Source: a virus. From it: 43,551 nucleotides of DNA. Of the stretch, positions 1 through 33,446 are shown piece by piece. The first letter of the stretch is position 1. Every line of letters begins with the position of its first letter. Under the pieces are notes generated by a model. That model made no database searches. It was not told the origin of the DNA and saw only the letters and a list, made by a program, of their open reading frames with translations. Position numbers and translations under genes: made by a program. The stretch spans positions 1-43,551 of the IMG/VR virus record IMGVR_UViG_3300037296_000061. The stretch is one strand, 5' to 3'.

Positions 1-3000
1 GCGCCTCCATACGCTCACGCACCCGACCTTCCATCGCATCAAATTGAGCGTCAGTAATATCATATTCACCATCTTCATTGGTGGTGATACCCATCTCGTC
101 AGCGACTTCATTTTGAACCTGTGCGTAGGACTCTGCCTGCTGCTTAACGTAGCTCTTTTCGTTATTAATGCCTGCGTCTAAAGTTTCGTAATTAAGGCCT
201 TTGTGGATACCGCGCTTACCGTCAACCGTTGCCTCTACCGTCACGGATTTATCATCCATGCTCTTCACGACAACATCATTAAAGACCCTGCCGCTAGACA
301 TGATTATGCGGCCAATATTTTGCTCTTCTGACAAGTTTAGTTTCGACTTGTAGTTAATCTCTCCGTTATTAGCAGTAGGTTTTTGCATCTCCCGAACCAT
401 CGCTTTGTCTGATAGCTCTCTAGGAGGTTTTTTAGCCGCTGGCAAGTCCTGTACTACTGGACTTCCATTTTCACTTATTACATCGATAGGTGCTGAGGTT
501 TGGTCATCAGCCGCACGTTGCCTTGGCGCTGGAATATTAACCGTAGGATTTTCATCGGTTAGCTGTGTGGCTGCCTGAGTATTGACGGCTGTTTGCTTAG
601 GCGCTGGCGTGTCAGCCATAACATTAGGCGCAGTGGTTTCAACGTCATTATCGAACGATAGACCGCCCTGCTTGGGATTGCCCTTGCCAGTAACCGCATT
701 GATACGCTGCTGGATATACTCACCAATAGCTTTGGCTGAGCGTCTGTTGTCAGACAGCACGCTTAGTATTTCTTTGGCACCATCGGTCAAGCCATCATCA
801 AACAAGCTATCTTGCGATAGATAGTCACCAACGTCTTGCTCACTGTTCTTGATATCCATATAGGCTTGTGTGGCATCTGCGATATCGCGTGCCAGCGTGT
901 TCTCAAACACATCGCCCGTCTTGATATCAGCATTGATTTGGCTGATCTGTGGCGCTTTATCAGTGATTGCGCGTAGTACGTTGGTGGTATCGTTATCCAA
1001 CTTCTCAGATATAGCAGACACGAGGCGCGGATTATTATAGGCGTCTTGTACGATAGCCGCTTCAATACGGTTTTTTCCTTCACGCGATAAGCCACCACTT
1101 TCATCCATCATGGCAGACTGCTCAGTGCTTGGCAGTCCTGACACAAAGTTTTTAAGGTACGACTGGCTTTGATACAAGCTCATATTGCCGTCACCATTGA
1201 ACGACAATAGGCTCGCATCGGGCAGGTTCTTAGCGTCACTTGCTGCTTGCTCTGTGCTACTCATACGTGCGGCAGTCGGCTTGTTCGCGGCTCGTGCAAA
1301 CTCGTCACGATTCATGTCTGAGGTATTGCGACGTACCAGCACTGGTGATTGCATCATGTTCACGGCATCAGTATCAAGGCCGAACTTGCTTGCCTGCTCA
1401 TTCACAAACTGGCGATACTCTTGCGCCTTCGCGCCATTCTCTTGATAGACTTTTCGGATCGCCATACTGCGGCCATTACCTGAGTCAACCACGTTATCAG
1501 TAGCGCCTACAAACGGTGCACCCGTTGATACGTCTGGGCTTTCACCTAAGATATTTGGCTGTAGCTTGCTGGCAATCTCATTGACTTGTTGCTGTGCGCT
1601 GGCACGTGTGCGGTCACGTGGTTGGCGTGAGGCTGGAAAGTCAGGGTTTGCTGTGAAGCTATCTGTATTACTGGTCACAAGGTCGCTAGCATCGACCACA
1701 TCCCATTGTGCTTTAACCTCATTACCTTCTGGTGTGTAGGCACGAGTCTGTGCGCGAGCCTCATCGAGGACACGAGTGTTAGGCTTAATCTGACGGGCGG
1801 CAACTTCGGCACGTGGTAGTTCGCTTGCTTCACGCATGAGACGGGTTTTTTCTGATATTGAGGTTGGCTCGTTCTGTATGGCCTGCGATAGTCTGCCGTA
1901 CACTTCATTGTTCTGGTCGGCATTGGCAAGGCGATCCATCATGCCGGATTGCCATGCGCTCATTTGTGGCTCTTGCGCTGCCACATCGCGCATCTGATTA
2001 CCGACTTCACTGGCACCGCTATCGACCGCCAATACTGCCGCTGCGGATAGACTGCCTTTATTGGCATCAAGCCCCATTAGCTCAGATGGCTTTGGTGCTT
2101 CGGGTACTGGCGTTCTATCTACTATCTCACCACGGGCACGACGGGCACGCTCATCGATACGTGCCTGCTGCTCGTTCTGTAAAGAAGTATTGACATCGGC
2201 ACCCGTTTGTACCGTACCATCAGGGGTAACGGTAAAGTCGTTTGGTGCTGGCAAGCGCGGGTCGTTACCGTACTGATCATAACCTTCGGTGGTCTGCGTG
2301 TTGTCTGTGAAGTTTCTAGGTTGCGGCTGATTGGCGTCACGCTCATTACGAGCACGCTCTTGTTGCTGTGCCAGATACTCATTGTACTGATCGCCTGTAA
2401 ATACCTCGCCATTAGGCCCTGCGTTAAATTGGTTGGTTGCTCTGCCTTGGAAGCCGAGTTGCGGTGCTGCTTGATTTCCTATTAATCCTGCTGGGCTGAA
2501 ACTAGGGTCTAGCGGATTGGTTGAGCCATATCCTACATCCTCTTGCCCCATGTCCTCAGTCGGGGTTATTCTTTCATCGGGTCTGCGATTGCGAGCAAAC
2601 GCGCCAGCACCAGCGCCCATCGCGGCACCTGAGAGTAAGCCAAGCGCAGCAGCATCACTCACACCTTCATCAAGTGGGCGACCTAGCGCCTCGTTTTGCA
2701 GGATGGTTTCAGATACCGATTGCGGTAGCTCTTCTAGCAAACCTTCACTGAGCGCCCCTTCTGCACCGCGTCTCAAGATACCTTTGTCTTTAGAGGTATT
2801 AGCAGCAGCGCTACCTGCAACGCTAGCGGCTGGGTTAGCAGTACGACCACCACCTGCGATGATGGTATCAACGTCACCGATACCAAGTTTTTGAGCAAGT
2901 TTACCGCCAGCAAAGCCAAAGCCTGCCGTAGTAGCGCCAGTTGCAGCAGCTAAACCTGCCTGCTTACCTGTCAGTAAACCATCATCTGTCTGTTGGCGTA

Positions 3001-3535
3001 TGCCTTCAGCAGCTAGACCTGCGCCTACTACACCCTCACCAAGCGCACCAGCAGCAACCGGGGATAAGCCTTTGGCAGCCAAACCAAGGCCACGACCAAT
3101 GACGCCACCTGCCAGCATGGATGGCAGTGACTCGACCACGGTATTAGTAATTAACGAAGGGTTGTTTAAAGCGTAACCAACCTTACCTCCAAAGCCTTCG
3201 GTATCAGTAAAGTCTTGTAGCTGCTCTTGAGATCGCTTAGTTTTAGCGCCAGCGATAGTCTCTTTTGCTTCACGAGGTCTAAATCCAACCGCACCACCTT
3301 CATTTTCTAGGAATTTACCAACACGACCACCAGTCGGAATATCAGCAAGACCGACCGCTAGCTCTGGAACCGATACGGCACCAGACAACGCAGTTAATCC
3401 TAAATCTCGAACATGCCCACCGATACCTTTATTTGGCGCGGCGCGGTTCTCTTTAATAAACTGCGCAATTTGCTGACTGCGCTGGCGAGCTGCATCCAAA
3501 GCTGGATCTTTTTCATTGTCTTTATAGTCACTCAT
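1..3535 (-). CDS. Phage large polyvalent protein, DdrB-like ParB domain (partial, C-terminus beyond window)
   Basis: The reading frame is open from the ATG at 3535 to the left edge, about 1178 codons, so the C-terminus is missing. The start follows AAGGTAG 6-7 bases upstream and lies 11 bases after the previous gene. Residues ~45-330 are Gly/Ala-rich and partly hydrophobic, as in internal or ejected virion proteins. Residues ~610-735 (DNA ~1330-1700) carry VDASDLVTS, then NPDFPASRQPRDRTR, then VDSGNGRSMAIRKVY, the signature of the DdrB-like ParB-superfamily domain found in phage polyvalent proteins. Proteins of this kind are thought to be packaged and delivered with the DNA, carrying several activities that protect or process it. 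Its place at the end of the late operon, behind a probable internal virion protein, fits. Which further domains follow is unknown. The domain call is good; the ejection role is inference. Confidence 0.75.
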   Translation of the reverse strand, partial: MSDYKDNEKDPALDAARQRSQQIAQFIKENRAAPNKGIGGHVRDLGLTALSGAVSVPELAVGLADIPTGGRVGKFLENEGGAVGFRPREAKETIAGAKTKRSQEQLQDFTDTEGFGGKVGYALNNPSLITNTVVESLPSMLAGGVIGRGLGLAAKGLSPVAAGALGEGVVGAGLAAEGIRQQTDDGLLTGKQAGLAAATGATTAGFGFAGGKLAQKLGIGDVDTIIAGGGRTANPAASVAGSAAANTSKDKGILRRGAEGALSEGLLEELPQSVSETILQNEALGRPLDEGVSDAAALGLLSGAAMGAGAGAFARNRRPDERITPTEDMGQEDVGYGSTNPLDPSFSPAGLIGNQAAPQLGFQGRATNQFNAGPNGEVFTGDQYNEYLAQQQERARNERDANQPQPRNFTDNTQTTEGYDQYGNDPRLPAPNDFTVTPDGTVQTGADVNTSLQNEQQARIDERARRARGEIVDRTPVPEAPKPSELMGLDANKGSLSAAAVLAVDSGASEVGNQMRDVAAQEPQMSAWQSGMMDRLANADQNNEVYGRLSQAIQNEPTSISEKTRLMREASELPRAEVAARQIKPNTRVLDEARAQTRAYTPEGNEVKAQWDVVDASDLVTSNTDSFTANPDFPASRQPRDRTRASAQQQVNEIASKLQPNILGESPDVSTGAPFVGATDNVVDSGNGRSMAIRKVYQENGAKAQEYRQFVNEQASKFGLDTDAVNMMQSPVLVRRNTSDMNRDEFARAANKPTAARMSSTEQAASDAKNLPDASLLSFNGDGNMSLYQSQSYLKNFVSGLPSTEQSAMMDESGGLSREGKNRIEAAIVQDAYNNPRLVSAISEKLDNDTTNVLRAITDKAPQISQINADIKTGDVFENTLARDIADATQAYMDIKNSEQDVGDYLSQDSLFDDGLTDGAKEILSVLSDNRRSAKAIGEYIQQRINAVTGKGNPKQGGLSFDNDVETTAPNVMADTPAPKQTAVNTQAATQLTDENPTVNIPAPRQRAADDQTSAPIDVISENGSPVVQDLPAAKKPPRELSDKAMVREMQKPTANNGEINYKSKLNLSEEQNIGRIIMSSGRVFNDVVVKSMDDKSVTVEATVDGKRGIHKGLNYETLDAGINNEKSYVKQQAESYAQVQNEVADEMGITTNEDGEYDITDAQFDAMEGRVRERMEA

Positions 3536-3546
3536 TGATATCTACC

Positions 3547-4746
3547 TTAGCTGTATAGGGCGGCAATTTGGGCTTGCATTTCTTCGTCGCTTAAATCTCT
3601 ATTACCTACAATGGCAAGGACTTCAGGGTCAGAGAAATTGATTTCCTTTTTCGGTAGATTGGTAAAGCCACCAGTATCAGGATTGTAGATAATTGATGGA
3701 TTTTTACTAACACCGCCCAAGCCACCCGGTATTGGCGACTCACCTGTCTGAGTGATAACCACTGGTTTGCTTTTCTTGTCAGGCGTGCCTTTTAGTGATT
3801 GAATTTGCTTGGCGATAGCACTTCTATCCTCATCGCTTTGCGCGGCATCAAACTTCTCGTAGAGCGAGTTCATCTGCTTAGGTGCAAAGTTTGCAACATC
3901 AGAATTGCTTTGATCAATATCCAAGCGACGACTGGCTAAGCTGTTTGCTTGCTGCTGCTGCTCAGCGGTTTGCTGAAACTTGCCAGCATCAAAGCCAAGC
4001 TGTGCGTTCATTCGATTGTTGCTACCAGCCTCGCCTAGAACCGCACGTTGATTAGCGCCATCCTGCGACATCTGCGCTTGTGACATCTGGCTTGCTGCAC
4101 TGAGCTGTGCGCCATACTGGTCATTCTTATACTTGTCATCAGCACCAACAATGCCAGCACGTAGCTCCATTTGTTTAGCGGTAAGCTGCCCATTCTGTGA
4201 GCCTTTATAAGCGGTACTGGCATCACGCAATAGCGCGTCACGCTCTTGGCGCTCGCTCCATGTACGGGTAGGTGCGTTTGGCATACGAAAGCCATTACCG
4301 CCACCACTTTTGATGGCTTGCGGATTACTCACTGGGTCAAAACCAATGCGCGGTGGGTTTACGGCTGGCTTGTTATTATCTGCATAGGTTTCGGTTATAG
4401 GTTCTTGTGCTGGCGCAGCCTTGCCAGCATAGACAGACGGGTAGCTGTTGATTGGTTCAGGCTTTGGTGCGCCAGTAACATAAGGGGTTTTAGCATTGAC
4501 GCCCAAACTGTTTAATGTGGCTGCATTATTGGCAAGCGATTGCTCGGTTGGATTGTATGCGGTTCTGACTTCTTGTGAGGCTTGGTTACGCGCAGCAGCT
4601 TGTTGTCCAGCCTGACCTATGCCGCCCACCCCTAAAGCGCCACCATTACGCTGACGCTCGCGCTTCTTCTTTTCCTCTTCCCAAGAACCACCTGCTCCAT
4701 TAGCACCCCATGATCCACCAGCGCCACCCATATTTCCAAGTGCCAT
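3547..4746 (-). CDS. Probable internal virion protein, Gln/Ala/Gly-rich
   Basis: The product is 399 aa. The ATG at 4746 is chosen because AGGTGA stands five bases upstream; a GTG nine bases earlier would overlap that site. Residues ~1-25 are Gly/Trp-rich (GGAGGSWGANGAGGSW). Residues ~160-310 are Gln/Ala/Ser-rich with helical heptad-like spacing (for example QTAEQQQQANSLASRRLD), and the C-terminus is acidic. No catalytic motif is visible. It is the first gene after a terminator and a late-promoter-like element, and is followed 11 bases later by the polyvalent protein, with which it is probably co-transcribed. The composition resembles small internal or ejection proteins of podoviruses. That function is inference from composition and position; a scaffold or tail accessory role is possible. 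Confidence 0.5.
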   Translation of the reverse strand: MALGNMGGAGGSWGANGAGGSWEEEKKKRERQRNGGALGVGGIGQAGQQAAARNQASQEVRTAYNPTEQSLANNAATLNSLGVNAKTPYVTGAPKPEPINSYPSVYAGKAAPAQEPITETYADNNKPAVNPPRIGFDPVSNPQAIKSGGGNGFRMPNAPTRTWSERQERDALLRDASTAYKGSQNGQLTAKQMELRAGIVGADDKYKNDQYGAQLSAASQMSQAQMSQDGANQRAVLGEAGSNNRMNAQLGFDAGKFQQTAEQQQQANSLASRRLDIDQSNSDVANFAPKQMNSLYEKFDAAQSDEDRSAIAKQIQSLKGTPDKKSKPVVITQTGESPIPGGLGGVSKNPSIIYNPDTGGFTNLPKKEINFSDPEVLAIVGNRDLSDEEMQAQIAALYS

Positions 4747-4808
4747 AACCATCACCTATAATTCAATTAGACTTTAGATGAGTATGGCGGATATACTGAG
4801 TTTCTTGA

Positions 4809-4822
4809 AACCTTATAGGGGT
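4809..4822 (-). promoter_or_regulatory. Late-promoter-like element, copy C
   Basis: On the minus strand this reads ACCCCTATAAGGTT, identical over 14 bases to the copy at 24729-24742. It lies 62 bases before the leftward gene starting at 4746, in the divergent gap shared with the rightward gene at 4833. The copies have no convincing shared -35 hexamer, so this may be an activator or sigma-specific site rather than a plain sigma-70 promoter. In the plus direction its AGGGG is also the nearest Shine-Dalgarno-like run before the ATG at 4833. Confidence 0.55.
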
Positions 4823-4832
4823 AAGCTTAGCC

Positions 4833-5342
4833 ATGGATAATGTTGTAATTTTTGCGATGGGGTTTGCAGCGCTTATCGCTTTTGTCGCCTTGCTTTGGTA
4901 TTTATTTCAAACTGTGCGAATCATATGGACTTACAATTCTTTGCTAGCAATCGCAGCAGTGATTTTTAGCCCATTGATTCACATGGTTTTTTACTTCATG
5001 CCAAAAGATGATTTTGACAGTAACGAAAGGGGTTTGTTTAAAAAATACTTCTTATCCATTGCTGCAATATTCACGATAGGTATTTCAGCTGCTGTGATCA
5101 TTCCTGCTACGCAGCAAGGTCAATCTAACAATGCCAATATTGATGAAACCACTGAGGTGCATTTTGCTGCTATCTTTAAAGCCCATCCTGATGCGGATAA
5201 AGTCGTAGAAAGCCCTGAGTTTGAGATTTGGCGTCAAAGAAAATCAGGGGTTGAAAGGGATAGTATTGAAAGGGTTTTAAGGGAGGGTTATTCTGAAGAG
5301 GTTATTGACATGCTGACTCTTTTCAAAAAAGAGTCAGCATAA
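4833..5342 (+). CDS. Rightward membrane protein (moron) with scaffold-like C-terminal domain
   Basis: The product is 169 aa, the only rightward gene in the late region. Residues 5-27 and 36-56 are hydrophobic helices and 71-92 a third, giving probably three membrane spans; the soluble C-terminal half is likely on one side of the inner membrane. Residues 110-168 align without gaps to residues 202-260 of the scaffold encoded at 23606-24625, with 21 of 59 identities by my count, including AH.DAD..VES.EFE.W and the terminal V..L....K pattern. The gene is bounded by a divergent intergenic gap and a strong terminator, the layout of a moron expressed independently of late genes. I do not recognise a named family. 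Interference with capsid assembly of related phages is a hypothesis only. Confidence 0.75.
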   Translation: MDNVVIFAMGFAALIAFVALLWYLFQTVRIIWTYNSLLAIAAVIFSPLIHMVFYFMPKDDFDSNERGLFKKYFLSIAAIFTIGISAAVIIPATQQGQSNNANIDETTEVHFAAIFKAHPDADKVVESPEFEIWRQRKSGVERDSIERVLREGYSEEVIDMLTLFKKESA

Positions 5343-5378
5343 AAAAATACCCGTCACGGTCGTGACGGGTATTTTATT
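5341..5378. terminator. Bidirectional intrinsic terminator
   Basis: A 13-bp inverted repeat (AATACCCGTCACG at 5346-5358 and its complement at 5361-5373) is separated by two bases. The plus strand continues ATTTTATTT; the minus strand continues with seven T. It would end the rightward gene at 4833-5342 and also the leftward tail operon that ends at 5398. Confidence 0.9.
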
Positions 5379-20099: not shown

Positions 20100-20507
20100 T
20101 TAAAGTTTGAAAATACGATTTGTTCCGTTATCCCAAGTTACAATAATATCTCCACCATTCGGCGTTATTGGTAATCCAGTTGCCGTGTCTATGTAAGCAA
20201 TCAGTGGGCTGGTCGCTTCTGAGCTGGTATCTTTATAGATAACAATAGCCTCAATACTCGCGCCTGTAACAGACGTGAAAGTAATATCAGCTGCATCAGC
20301 TGCGCCACCAGCGGTAGCTTTACTTGTTAGAGTAACTGGTCCAGCAATACGTGCTGACGTTGCAATGTCAGATAAATACTCATGCGTCTGCGTCTGCGGT
20401 GTATAAGCACCAGTATCAACAAGATAGACTTTGATGGTGTCAGTCTGCCAGTTAATCTGCCCTTCTAAGAACCGCTTACGTGCGGCATCGTATAACGTGT
20501 TAGCCAT
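20100..20507 (-). CDS. Small structural phage protein, paralogue of 32980-33417
   Basis: The product is 135 aa; AGGAGA precedes the ATG by seven bases. It is clearly related to the product at 32980-33417: shared positions include [IV]xW..DT[IV]K, LSDI..SAR, LT.K, YKD, LI.YI and near the end PNGGD[IV].[VI]TWD.G...IF.L. The predicted structure is all-beta. This type occurs among minor virion or decoration-like proteins of podoviruses. It lies after the adaptor gene in the late operon and before the HNH insertion. The exact role is unknown. Confidence 0.6.
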   Translation of the reverse strand: MANTLYDAARKRFLEGQINWQTDTIKVYLVDTGAYTPQTQTHEYLSDIATSARIAGPVTLTSKATAGGAADAADITFTSVTGASIEAIVIYKDTSSEATSPLIAYIDTATGLPITPNGGDIIVTWDNGTNRIFKL

Positions 20508-22304: not shown

Positions 22305-23594
22305 TTACAGACCACGGCCAAATGAGTTGACCGCAGTATCGACGACAGTAATGCCGTAATCTGTGAACTCGTTCCCGTTACCAGTAGCAACATCAAAACG
22401 GATCTTTGAGACGCCACGAATAGCGCCAATCAATAGCTCCATCTTATCGCCATGATCTAGCTCTTTTTCTGACCAGAAGAATGGCATACCACTATTTTTG
22501 TGCGCTGCCATAGCTTCAGCAATAGCTTGCCCACCTAAGATAAGCGAACGGTCAACGGCAAAGTTTTCACCGAATGAGGCTGGCACGATGGCCTTGTCTT
22601 CTGCTTCACTTGTGAATGAGGTGCAATACTGCATTTCATCACCAGCATAGAAGCGGATAGGCCGTGGCATCTTGATAATCAAAAAGCCATTCCAAATACC
22701 TGCTTGACCTTTAAACAGCGGATGACCAGCAGCTTGTGCGGCACGCGATAAAGCGGCAGCTTGGAATTGACGGAACGTAGGATCAGCAGCAAACTTGTTG
22801 TACTGAGCAGGACTCATCATCCAGACGCGCAGTGGGTCATCATCTGCCATCACATCGCCTTCAAACTTGACGATAGGTGGTGGTAGCGCCATTTGATCCA
22901 TCATTGACTTCATCGAGTCAACGGTGTCCATTTTTAGCATGTCAGACGAGGTGATATTAATCTCGCCAGCAGTTACGCTAAAAGACTGAATCGCATCAGC
23001 AGTCGCTAAGTAATGACGGTTTTTAGTAGGCGCTTTGACCGTATTGACCATGATCTCATTGAACTTAGGATCATCATTGGTAGGGATAACCCACTCAATG
23101 TTGTTTTGCTTGCCACGTGCGCCAGCCATGTGAACTAGCAAGGTCTGGTCAACATAACGCGCCATTAATGCTTCGGCTTGTGGGCGTGCCATCGCTCGTA
23201 AGTCAACCGGATTACGAATAGTCGTCATCGTGTCGCCCATATCGATTGGGAAACGCGCTTGATTGACTCGTAGCTTATCTTCTGTGAAGCTCATTCCAGT
23301 ACCGCGACCTTCGGCATTTTTACTGCCCATGATCGGTTTAGCGCCTACTGGATTCAGTAAGTGAAAGGTCACTTCATCGCCAGTGCCTTTACCCAAGTCT
23401 TGTACTTGGACGATAGGCATGTGCTGAGTGGTTTGTTTGCGAACAGTCGCTTCAGCGCCAGCAATGCCTTTAGGCATCTTGCCTGTTAGCTTCTGCATGG
23501 TGCCGTTGCGACGCATGTGGGTTGCGAACACGCCAGCGGCTTGTACGCGCATGTTCGATTTATCGCCGTATGCGGCGTGGGTTGTGGTAGCCAT
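22305..23594 (-). CDS. Major capsid protein, N4-gp56 family
   Basis: The product is 429 aa. The ATG at 23594 is chosen because AGGAG stands eight bases upstream; a GTG three codons earlier would overlap it. The sequence matches the N4-gp56 / DUF4043 major capsid family by overall pattern: VRKQTTQHMPIVQVQDLGKG, then a long region with RFPIDMGDTMTTIRNPVDLR, MARPQAEALMARYVDQTLLVHMAGARG, the MMSPAQYNKF block and GQAGIWNGFLIIKMPRPIRF. Length is normal for the family. It follows the scaffold gene closely and precedes a decoration-like gene. The shell is assembled from this protein on the scaffold. Confidence in the family is high. Confidence 0.9.
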   Translation of the reverse strand: MATTTHAAYGDKSNMRVQAAGVFATHMRRNGTMQKLTGKMPKGIAGAEATVRKQTTQHMPIVQVQDLGKGTGDEVTFHLLNPVGAKPIMGSKNAEGRGTGMSFTEDKLRVNQARFPIDMGDTMTTIRNPVDLRAMARPQAEALMARYVDQTLLVHMAGARGKQNNIEWVIPTNDDPKFNEIMVNTVKAPTKNRHYLATADAIQSFSVTAGEINITSSDMLKMDTVDSMKSMMDQMALPPPIVKFEGDVMADDDPLRVWMMSPAQYNKFAADPTFRQFQAAALSRAAQAAGHPLFKGQAGIWNGFLIIKMPRPIRFYAGDEMQYCTSFTSEAEDKAIVPASFGENFAVDRSLILGGQAIAEAMAAHKNSGMPFFWSEKELDHGDKMELLIGAIRGVSKIRFDVATGNGNEFTDYGITVVDTAVNSFGRGL

Positions 23595-23605
23595 CTGTGC
23601 CACTC

Positions 23606-24625
23606 CTAAAGGTTATTTAAGTATTGCTCGCGCTTTTCAGGCGACCAGTCCATCATTGTTTCAGCCAATTCCATCGGAGACATAGAAGCCATCTGCTCAG
23701 TGATATTGGTTGCGCCTTTGTGTCCACCAGGTATGTCGCTTAGACTGGCAGGCACGACGGGCGCTGTGTTCTTGATTGCCTCACGTGCCTTGGCTTTTAG
23801 CTCATCTTTCGATGGCTCAGCCTTGGCAGGTTCAGGCGTGCTATTGGTTGACTGCTTATAGTTATTGAGTAGCTCGACCACTTGTTCGGCAGTACCTTGC
23901 TGCAATACTCCATCGAGTGCGGCTTGAATGTAGCTAGGCTGTGACGCCTTCCACGATTCAAACTCGCCACTCTCAACGATAGAGTCGGCATCTTGGTGTG
24001 CTTCATAGATGGTACGCATGTGAGATTGCGCGGCACTCTCTTGCTCTTTTTGCTGCATCGGCTTTAAGGCTTCTGCAACCTGAGCTTTGACTTGTGCTGC
24101 AACATCGGCATTAACTAAGCGCTTAATACCATCTGCCAGAGCTTGTTCGGAGAAGTCTCCAAATTGGTTAGGGTCTACGCCAGCATCGATTGCGGCCTGT
24201 GCCGTCTCAATGTCCTGCTCTTGCTGCGTTGCCACAGCGGTATCAGGCTTAGGTTGCTTGCGTAGAATCTCTAACTCAGCATTGGCAGCGGCTAACGCTT
24301 CTTGCGATACGCGGTCACGCTCACGTGCTTCGACCAGCTTTTCATAGGGAATGGTATGAAAACCATCACGAGCCATCACGACCTTCTCACCTTCTGCCTC
24401 ATCGTCCGACGGTGCTTCAGGTGTTGCTTCGTCTTGCTCGTCTGCCTTATCTTCTGCTGGCTTGTCAATCACTTCGTCTGCTGCGGTATCGGCTGGCGTC
24501 TCGATACTATCCGCTTGCGCGGTATCGCCATTCATACTGTCTTCCAAGTATTGCGCTGCTTGTTGAGGCGACCAATCACCATCATCTAAGCTGTCATCAT
24601 TCAAACTATTTGCATCAACTGTCAT
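23606..24625 (-). CDS. Capsid scaffolding protein
   Basis: The product is 339 aa. Residues 1-80 are very acidic and disordered; ~95-125 and ~165-200 are predicted coiled coil; residues 202-260 hold a compact motif (AHQDADSIVESGEFESWK ... VVELLNNYK); the C-terminus (~315-339) is a helical hook rich in Met/Glu, typical of coat-binding ends of scaffolds. Position immediately before the major capsid gene and composition make scaffold the best call. The start follows AAAGGACAG. It is the first gene behind a terminator and the late-promoter-like element at 24729-24742. Residues 202-260 recur in the membrane protein at 4833-5342. Confidence 0.85.
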   Translation of the reverse strand: MTVDANSLNDDSLDDGDWSPQQAAQYLEDSMNGDTAQADSIETPADTAADEVIDKPAEDKADEQDEATPEAPSDDEAEGEKVVMARDGFHTIPYEKLVEARERDRVSQEALAAANAELEILRKQPKPDTAVATQQEQDIETAQAAIDAGVDPNQFGDFSEQALADGIKRLVNADVAAQVKAQVAEALKPMQQKEQESAAQSHMRTIYEAHQDADSIVESGEFESWKASQPSYIQAALDGVLQQGTAEQVVELLNNYKQSTNSTPEPAKAEPSKDELKAKAREAIKNTAPVVPASLSDIPGGHKGATNITEQMASMSPMELAETMMDWSPEKREQYLNNL

Positions 24626-32979: not shown

Positions 32980-33417
32980 TTATGCACAACTACGTGTAGT
33001 GGCTGGCATGTCGTATAGCGTAAATATCTTCTTCAAACCTCTATCCCAAGTGATTGTAACGTCACCACCGTTGGGCAGAAAAGGCATACCAAAGCAGTTG
33101 CCAATATAGGTAATTAAATCATTGGTATCATCTTCGCCGCTATCTTTATACAACACTAAGCCACCAACCATAGCACCAATAAGATACTCAAAGAACACAT
33201 CGTCTGCATCGGCTGCATCAAAAACAAACCTCTTGTTGGTCAATGGCACAGCTCTATCGACACGCGCTGACAAAGGAATATCTGACAAAGTAGAGTGCTC
33301 AGCGTCAAAGTTGTATAACTGCGTATTAACAAACATAGCTTTGACGGTATCATTCACCCAATCTATCGAGCCGTCCTTTATCTTATCCATGGCATTAAAA
33401 TAAAATTGATTATTCAT
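32980..33417 (-). CDS. Paralogue of late structural protein (20100-20507)
   Basis: The product is 145 aa; the ATG at 33417 is preceded by GGAGG, so the upstream in-frame ATG is rejected. It shares with the 135-aa late protein the ordered motifs [IV]DW..DTVK, LSDI.LSAR, LTNK, LYKD, LITYI, PNGGD[VI]TITWD.G...IF.L. It has an extra C-terminal tail (YDMPATTRSCA). Unlike its relative it stands outside the tail block, between the winged-helix gene and the terminator before terminase. It may be a second virion protein or one with a changed role. Function unknown. Confidence 0.6.
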   Translation of the reverse strand: MNNQFYFNAMDKIKDGSIDWVNDTVKAMFVNTQLYNFDAEHSTLSDIPLSARVDRAVPLTNKRFVFDAADADDVFFEYLIGAMVGGLVLYKDSGEDDTNDLITYIGNCFGMPFLPNGGDVTITWDRGLKKIFTLYDMPATTRSCA

Positions 33418-33446
33418 GATTACCTCCATATTATCTTGCTGGCAAG

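Follow-up and report, generated by a model that had tools for sequence, protein, structure and literature searches.

What would lead a temperate phage to carry, on the strand opposite to its late genes, a small membrane protein that ends in a domain of its own capsid scaffold? The phage concerned is an F116/P22-like temperate Psychrobacter phage with a P22-type portal, and by the window we mean the whole stretch of its DNA that was analysed (43,551 nucleotides, IMG/VR record IMGVR_UViG_3300037296_000061). The initial annotation of the window had described the gene, here called P0001, as a rightward open reading frame with its own leader and a strong terminator, encoding about three membrane spans and a segment that aligns without gaps to the scaffold at 21 of 59 residues. 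These descriptions were reproduced: the reading frame was found as described (169 amino acids), hydropathy places the spans at about residues 4-24, 36-56 and 73-93, the gapless comparison of P0001 residues 110-168 with scaffold residues 202-260 gives exactly 21/59 identities, and both a promoter-like site and a strong hairpin were located (Table 1).

Table 1. Positions, strands and properties of P0001, the scaffold gene and associated features of the window
Feature	Position	Strand	Remarks
Giant late ORF	1..3529	-	at least 1176 aa, runs past window end
402-aa internal/ejection-like protein, phrog_11341	3547..4755	-	divergent neighbour of P0001
KGS motif of 402-aa protein	4132..4269	-	residues 163-208
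Rightward promoter-like site TTAGAC ... TATACT	4767..4797	+	conserved
Gene P0001	4833..5342	+	membrane module and scaffold-type domain, 169 aa
Membrane module of P0001	4833..5117	+	residues 1-95, predicted N-in, C-out
Scaffold-type 'HPDAD' domain of P0001	5139..5333	+	residues 103-167, five helices
Strong hairpin terminator	5344..5375	.	14-bp hairpin, -21.6 kcal/mol, z -5.3
Major capsid protein, Phage_capsid_3 / phrog_334	22305..23603	-	
Scaffold gene P0002, phrog_479	23606..24625	-	directly upstream of major capsid gene
Shared domain, source-type copy	23840..24043	-	scaffold residues 195-262

The likeness between P0001 and the scaffold is well above what chance would give. Pairwise BLASTP of P0001 against the scaffold of the window gave 50 bits (E 3e-12), P0001 matched phrog_479 at E 6.6e-6, and a profile of 38 scaffold domains, built without members of the membrane family, scored it at 76.2 bits (E 7.7e-20 at Z = 1e6). 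Chance or composition as the source of the likeness was rejected because the best of 2000 shuffles of the C-terminal part of P0001 reached 6.7 bits with the same profile, and the profile-profile comparison of the two segments which the initial annotation had proposed as a check returned an hhalign probability of 99.6. By sequence homology P0001 belongs to the F116-type scaffold domain (the phrog_479 mid-domain), but it is not a capsid scaffold as a whole, as it lies 17 kb away with approximately 60 residues in common, and those residues come from the middle of the scaffold and not from its C-terminal end. AlphaFold2 modelled the domain as five helices with a pLDDT of 92.4 (from 42 aligned sequences, an alignment of scaffolds), while a full-length model of P0001 was of low confidence (pLDDT 65) and was left unused. 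No credible match to the domain, by sequence or by fold (the latter with Foldseek), was found among solved structures in the PDB; its matches to predicted phage proteins in BFVD were weak, with probabilities of 0.8-1.0 but E values above 0.03, one of them being named a capsid assembly protein. Searches of P0001 against Pfam and NCBIfam gave no significant match, and membership of a known anti-phage defence family was rejected since no PADLOC 2.0 profile matched P0001 (nor did any match P0004, the L053 protein or P0005).

That P0002 is the scaffold is supported by its position and its homology: in F116, and in 78 of the 80 IMG/VR loci that contain the domain, a relative of P0002 immediately precedes the major capsid gene (L084, where the capsid match starts late, was placed among the 78 by inspection); the remaining two loci encode members of the membrane family to which P0001 belongs. 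A search of 349 Moraxellaceae genomes gave 18 matches, comprising 15 scaffolds with capsid genes and 3 members of the membrane family. This survey of the context of the homologues, also suggested at the outset, thus returned scaffolds and the membrane family only, and the idea that the domain is common in bacterial membrane proteins was discarded for these 349 genomes. When the search was widened to samples of 369 and 398 genomes, most of the matches were scaffolds, and distant versions of the domain turned up in two exported peptidoglycan (PG)-binding-type proteins from other proteobacteria (L063 1168-3186 and L175 937-3159, with a PG_binding_1 match in L175). The L063 protein has an AAA ATPase gene upstream of it. 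A further side observation from the searches was that the scaffold gene of an F116-like prophage of Neisseria gonorrhoeae (L007 5640-6387) is split over two frames. A tree of 50 domains, having only 69 columns and with its deep forks unsettled, places the membrane family as a single clade (support 98/97) nested among the F116-type scaffolds, with the PG-binding-type versions outside it. Recent internal duplication of the phage's own scaffold was rejected as the origin of the domain, as the family domains form a clade of their own over these 69 columns. The family is absent from F116 and from most of the scaffold-bearing phages seen.

The N-terminal half of P0001 has different relatives. A Psychrobacter plasmid encodes the membrane module alone, with 47% identity over P0001 residues 1-119, and in Psychrobacter chromosomes, among ordinary neighbouring genes, it is joined to Sel1 repeats or to a short tail. 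Since this Psychrobacter-type half exists as a module in its own right, P0001 is a fusion gene that joins two parts, a membrane anchor of the host type and a scaffold domain of the phage. A homologue with 85% identity lies at the identical position in Psychrobacter sp. 4Bb (L003), and comparison of the two gave a dN/dS of 0.11 for the whole gene and 0.056 for the scaffold-type domain. P0001 is under purifying selection, which is strongest in the scaffold-type domain.

Loop 2, between spans 2 and 3, carries 4-5 lysines or arginines in 11/11 relatives and loop 1 carries 1-2 in the 11, and the members with the HPDAD domain have none over the 20 residues that follow span 3; from this pattern of loop charges an N-in/C-out topology is predicted. 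Relatives in L052, L053 and L056 have a C-terminal domain with four cysteines (4-Cys) that also occurs in DUF4124 proteins with signal peptides, and from the charge counts and the analogy to this domain it is quite probable that the scaffold-type domain of P0001 is periplasmic.

Within the phages (the window, L003 and L053) the P0001-type gene lies on the opposite strand and adjoins a tail-region gene; its other neighbour, where the contig reaches so far, is the gene for the 402-aa ejection-like protein. We infer an ejection role for this protein from its position beside the giant late ORF, relatives of which are annotated as PLxRFG or DarB-like polyvalent proteins. At the same site as P0001, L055 and L056 carry a membrane module with a different C-terminus. 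The TTAGAC/TATACT pair recurs in the phages and in the satellite-like elements described below, whose upstream genes differ, and P0001 may be expressed in the lysogen from this predicted promoter of its own. The terminator hairpin is symmetric and could serve the leftward operon too. Ahead of the gene there is a leader with the conserved reading MSMADILSFLKPYRG (window 4779-4841; L053 115-172; L056 9947-10004). In L053 and L056 it shares the reading frame of the membrane protein, but in the window it ends at a stop that overlaps the P0001 start codon. Elsewhere in the window, two leftward genes at 32980-33429 and 20100-20507 have products that are similar by eye (MNNQFYFNAMDKIKDGSIDW... and MANTLYDAARKRFLEGQINW...) and may represent a second copy of a late protein, adjoining TerS.

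P0001-type genes were also found in capsid-less elements. A 29.3-kb element in the genome G010 (G010:C7:56332-85672; L049, L026, L050) is bounded by a 20-bp repeat (attL/attR) at tRNA-Arg(CCG) and encodes an integrase, an AlpA-like regulator, replication genes, TerS (phrog_1206, E 9e-44), a 511-aa ejection-like protein, a 2747-aa giant protein and a 361-aa version of the P0001-type protein, while TerL, portal, capsid, scaffold and tail genes are lacking from its gene content. The independent 21-kb contig L052 (element at 1-20295) has the same layout, with an ejection-like protein of 550 aa and a short remnant only of the giant gene. The longer P0001-type genes lie beside TerS in both of these capsid-less elements, and in G102 a P0001-type gene adjoins a TerS fragment. 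Both elements have the outline of phage-inducible chromosomal islands (PICIs), the att repeat and tRNA-Arg being found in G010 only, and in their gene content they look like PICI-type satellites of F116-like phages. It is less likely that the G010 element is a randomly deleted prophage, because its borders, its open reading frames and the order of its genes are undamaged, and L052 has the same layout. Scanning the viral contigs for TerS gave no relatives. In G010 the gene immediately ahead of the membrane-scaffold gene is a rightward one (G010:C7:75162-75443) for a 93-aa product with a signal-peptide-like start and one span, and its DNA is conserved in L052 too.

The scaffold domain is not the only motif that this family has in common with phage internal proteins, as the longer relatives of P0001, though not P0001 itself, carry one or two copies of the approximately 45-aa 'KGS' motif of the 402-aa protein. 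This motif was recovered with a profile made from ejection-like proteins alone, both in the longer relatives (E 1e-8 to 5e-5) and among exported DUF4124 proteins (E 2e-15 to 5e-8). The latter consist of a signal peptide, the KGS motif and the 4-Cys domain, and come from six Acinetobacter prophages and one phage-plasmid (L146 5518-6135; L150, L152-L154 and L156; the Acinetobacter prophages are F116-like), the gene being convergent with the ejection-like gene in several cases.

We tentatively propose, with a probability of roughly 0.4, that P0001 is a superinfection-exclusion protein resembling SieA of phage P22. P0001 would sit in the inner membrane of the lysogen with its scaffold domain facing the periplasm, where the domain would capture the ejection proteins of an incoming related phage or cause them to misassemble, so that the DNA of that phage would not be delivered. 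The effect would come from the role of this domain in the scaffold, where ejection proteins would dock on it for loading into the prohead. To our knowledge, the ejection proteins are the only scaffold partners of P22 that enter the periplasm. SieA blocks P22-like phages by acting on the ejection proteins gp16 and gp20 (PMC10883804), the P22 scaffold has been proposed as the site at which ejection proteins dock (PMC12005531), and from these two precedents the P0001 domain is therefore proposed as an ejection-protein dock, a role that the scaffold mid-domain may, by analogy, have in F116-like phages. Consistent with exclusion are the three spans and, in the whole family, a charge pattern that predicts an outward C-terminus, the 4-Cys domain that links members in L052, L053 and L056 to exported DUF4124 proteins, the position of P0001 next to an ejection-like gene but on the other strand, under a promoter-like site of its own, the independent occurrence of KGS in exported Acinetobacter proteins and in longer family members, and the purifying selection acting most strongly on the domain. 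Capsid-less elements, too, would benefit from keeping competitors out. It is conceivable, albeit doubtful, that the phages and satellites of this group more generally defend the cell by envelope-displayed copies of their own docking modules (self-mimicry exclusion), the scaffold domain and the ejection-protein motif, carried on membrane anchors or signal peptides, catching the incoming ejection apparatus in the periplasm.

The initial annotation had suggested that a membrane-held mimic of the scaffold could titrate or misdirect the capsid assembly of a superinfecting relative, or tether proheads. In such a reading the copy would face the cytoplasm and compete for the partner of the scaffold, poisoning or resizing the capsids of a relative or, for the capsid-less elements, of the helper. 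The anti-relative part of that proposal is plausible, the more so as the gene is also found in capsid-less elements with TerS, and competition of this kind agrees with the direct homology of P0001 to the scaffold and with what known satellites do by means of soluble proteins such as SaPI1 CpmB (PMC5644958). Titration or tethering of capsids, however, is weakened because it needs a cytoplasmic C-terminus, and the predicted topology and the 4-Cys partners place it outside; a membrane anchor is also unexpected in an assembly competitor, and the shared part is the scaffold middle rather than the C-terminal end which, in CpmB, binds capsid protein. We consider this explanation unlikely. A tethering function in the phage's own morphogenesis, with P0001 holding proheads or scaffold at the membrane, would suit a gene inside the late region of a phage that also has its own scaffold, but is highly improbable for one which lies on the strand opposite to the late operon with its own promoter-like site, belongs to a family missing from F116 and most scaffold-bearing phages, and is present in elements without any capsid genes.

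The domain could also be a general helical protein-protein module, with P0001 having an envelope or lysogenic-conversion role and no link to capsids or exclusion. This alternative, raised in the initial annotation too, drew limited support from the distant versions in the two exported PG-binding-type proteins, and is in keeping with the occurrence of the membrane module in ordinary Psychrobacter chromosomal genes and with the retention in L055 and L056 of a gene at the same site that lacks the domain. We nevertheless regard it as rather unlikely, since in the Moraxellaceae genomes and viral loci the domain is confined to scaffolds and the membrane family, the family clade is nested in F116-type scaffolds with the PG-binding versions falling outside, and the second motif derives from another phage internal protein.

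If the SieA-like role of P0001 is correct, the phage builds exclusion from the contacts of its own virion assembly, which would explain specificity for relatives, and a so far undescribed scaffold domain would be pointed to as a docking site for ejection proteins. Even without exclusion, a host-type anchor and a capsid scaffold domain in one gene is an unusual combination, and both phages and satellite-like elements keep this fusion gene under strong selection. The data also suggest a group of Psychrobacter satellites with ejection-type genes.

Gram-negative PICIs of the EcCICFT073 type have an integrase, an AlpA-type regulator, replication genes and TerS and no capsid genes (PMC6092414), an outline identical to that of the G010 element and L052, but these two satellite-like elements differ in keeping ejection-like genes and the membrane-scaffold gene. 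SaPI1 CpmB, which competes for capsid protein, has the RIIK motif of the 80alpha scaffold (PMC5644958); P0001-type proteins are likewise mobile-element proteins with a segment in common with the helper's scaffold, but CpmB, a soluble protein, has in common with it the C-terminal motif that binds capsid protein, whereas P0001 is a membrane protein with a domain from the middle of the scaffold. Element proteins that act on helper capsid assembly are also known in TcaP of the V. cholerae satellite PLE and Sid of P4, for which, unlike P0001, no membrane anchor is reported (PMC10945586, PMC7552001). The C-terminal domain of P0001 is homologous to the phrog_479 scaffolds of F116-like (Hollowayvirus) phages, from which P0001 differs in having membrane spans and in lacking all of the remaining scaffold. 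We know of no domain in TcaP or Sid that is copied from the phage's own scaffold. P0001 was rejected as a homologue of SieA, as SieA matches phrog_7745 and P0001 does not, with no sequence relation between the two; SieA lacks a scaffold domain, and the motif most conserved in it is predicted to lie in the cytoplasm, unlike the probably periplasmic domain of P0001. Nonetheless, SieA is a three-span inner-membrane protein of 162-164 aa (PMC10883804), and P0001 (169 aa) resembles it in length, in its three spans, in being a gene of a P22-like short-tailed prophage and in lying, with its own promoter (a predicted one for P0001), on the opposite strand beside an ejection-type gene, which is gene 16 for sieA and, for P0001, a neighbour whose ejection role is taken from its position.
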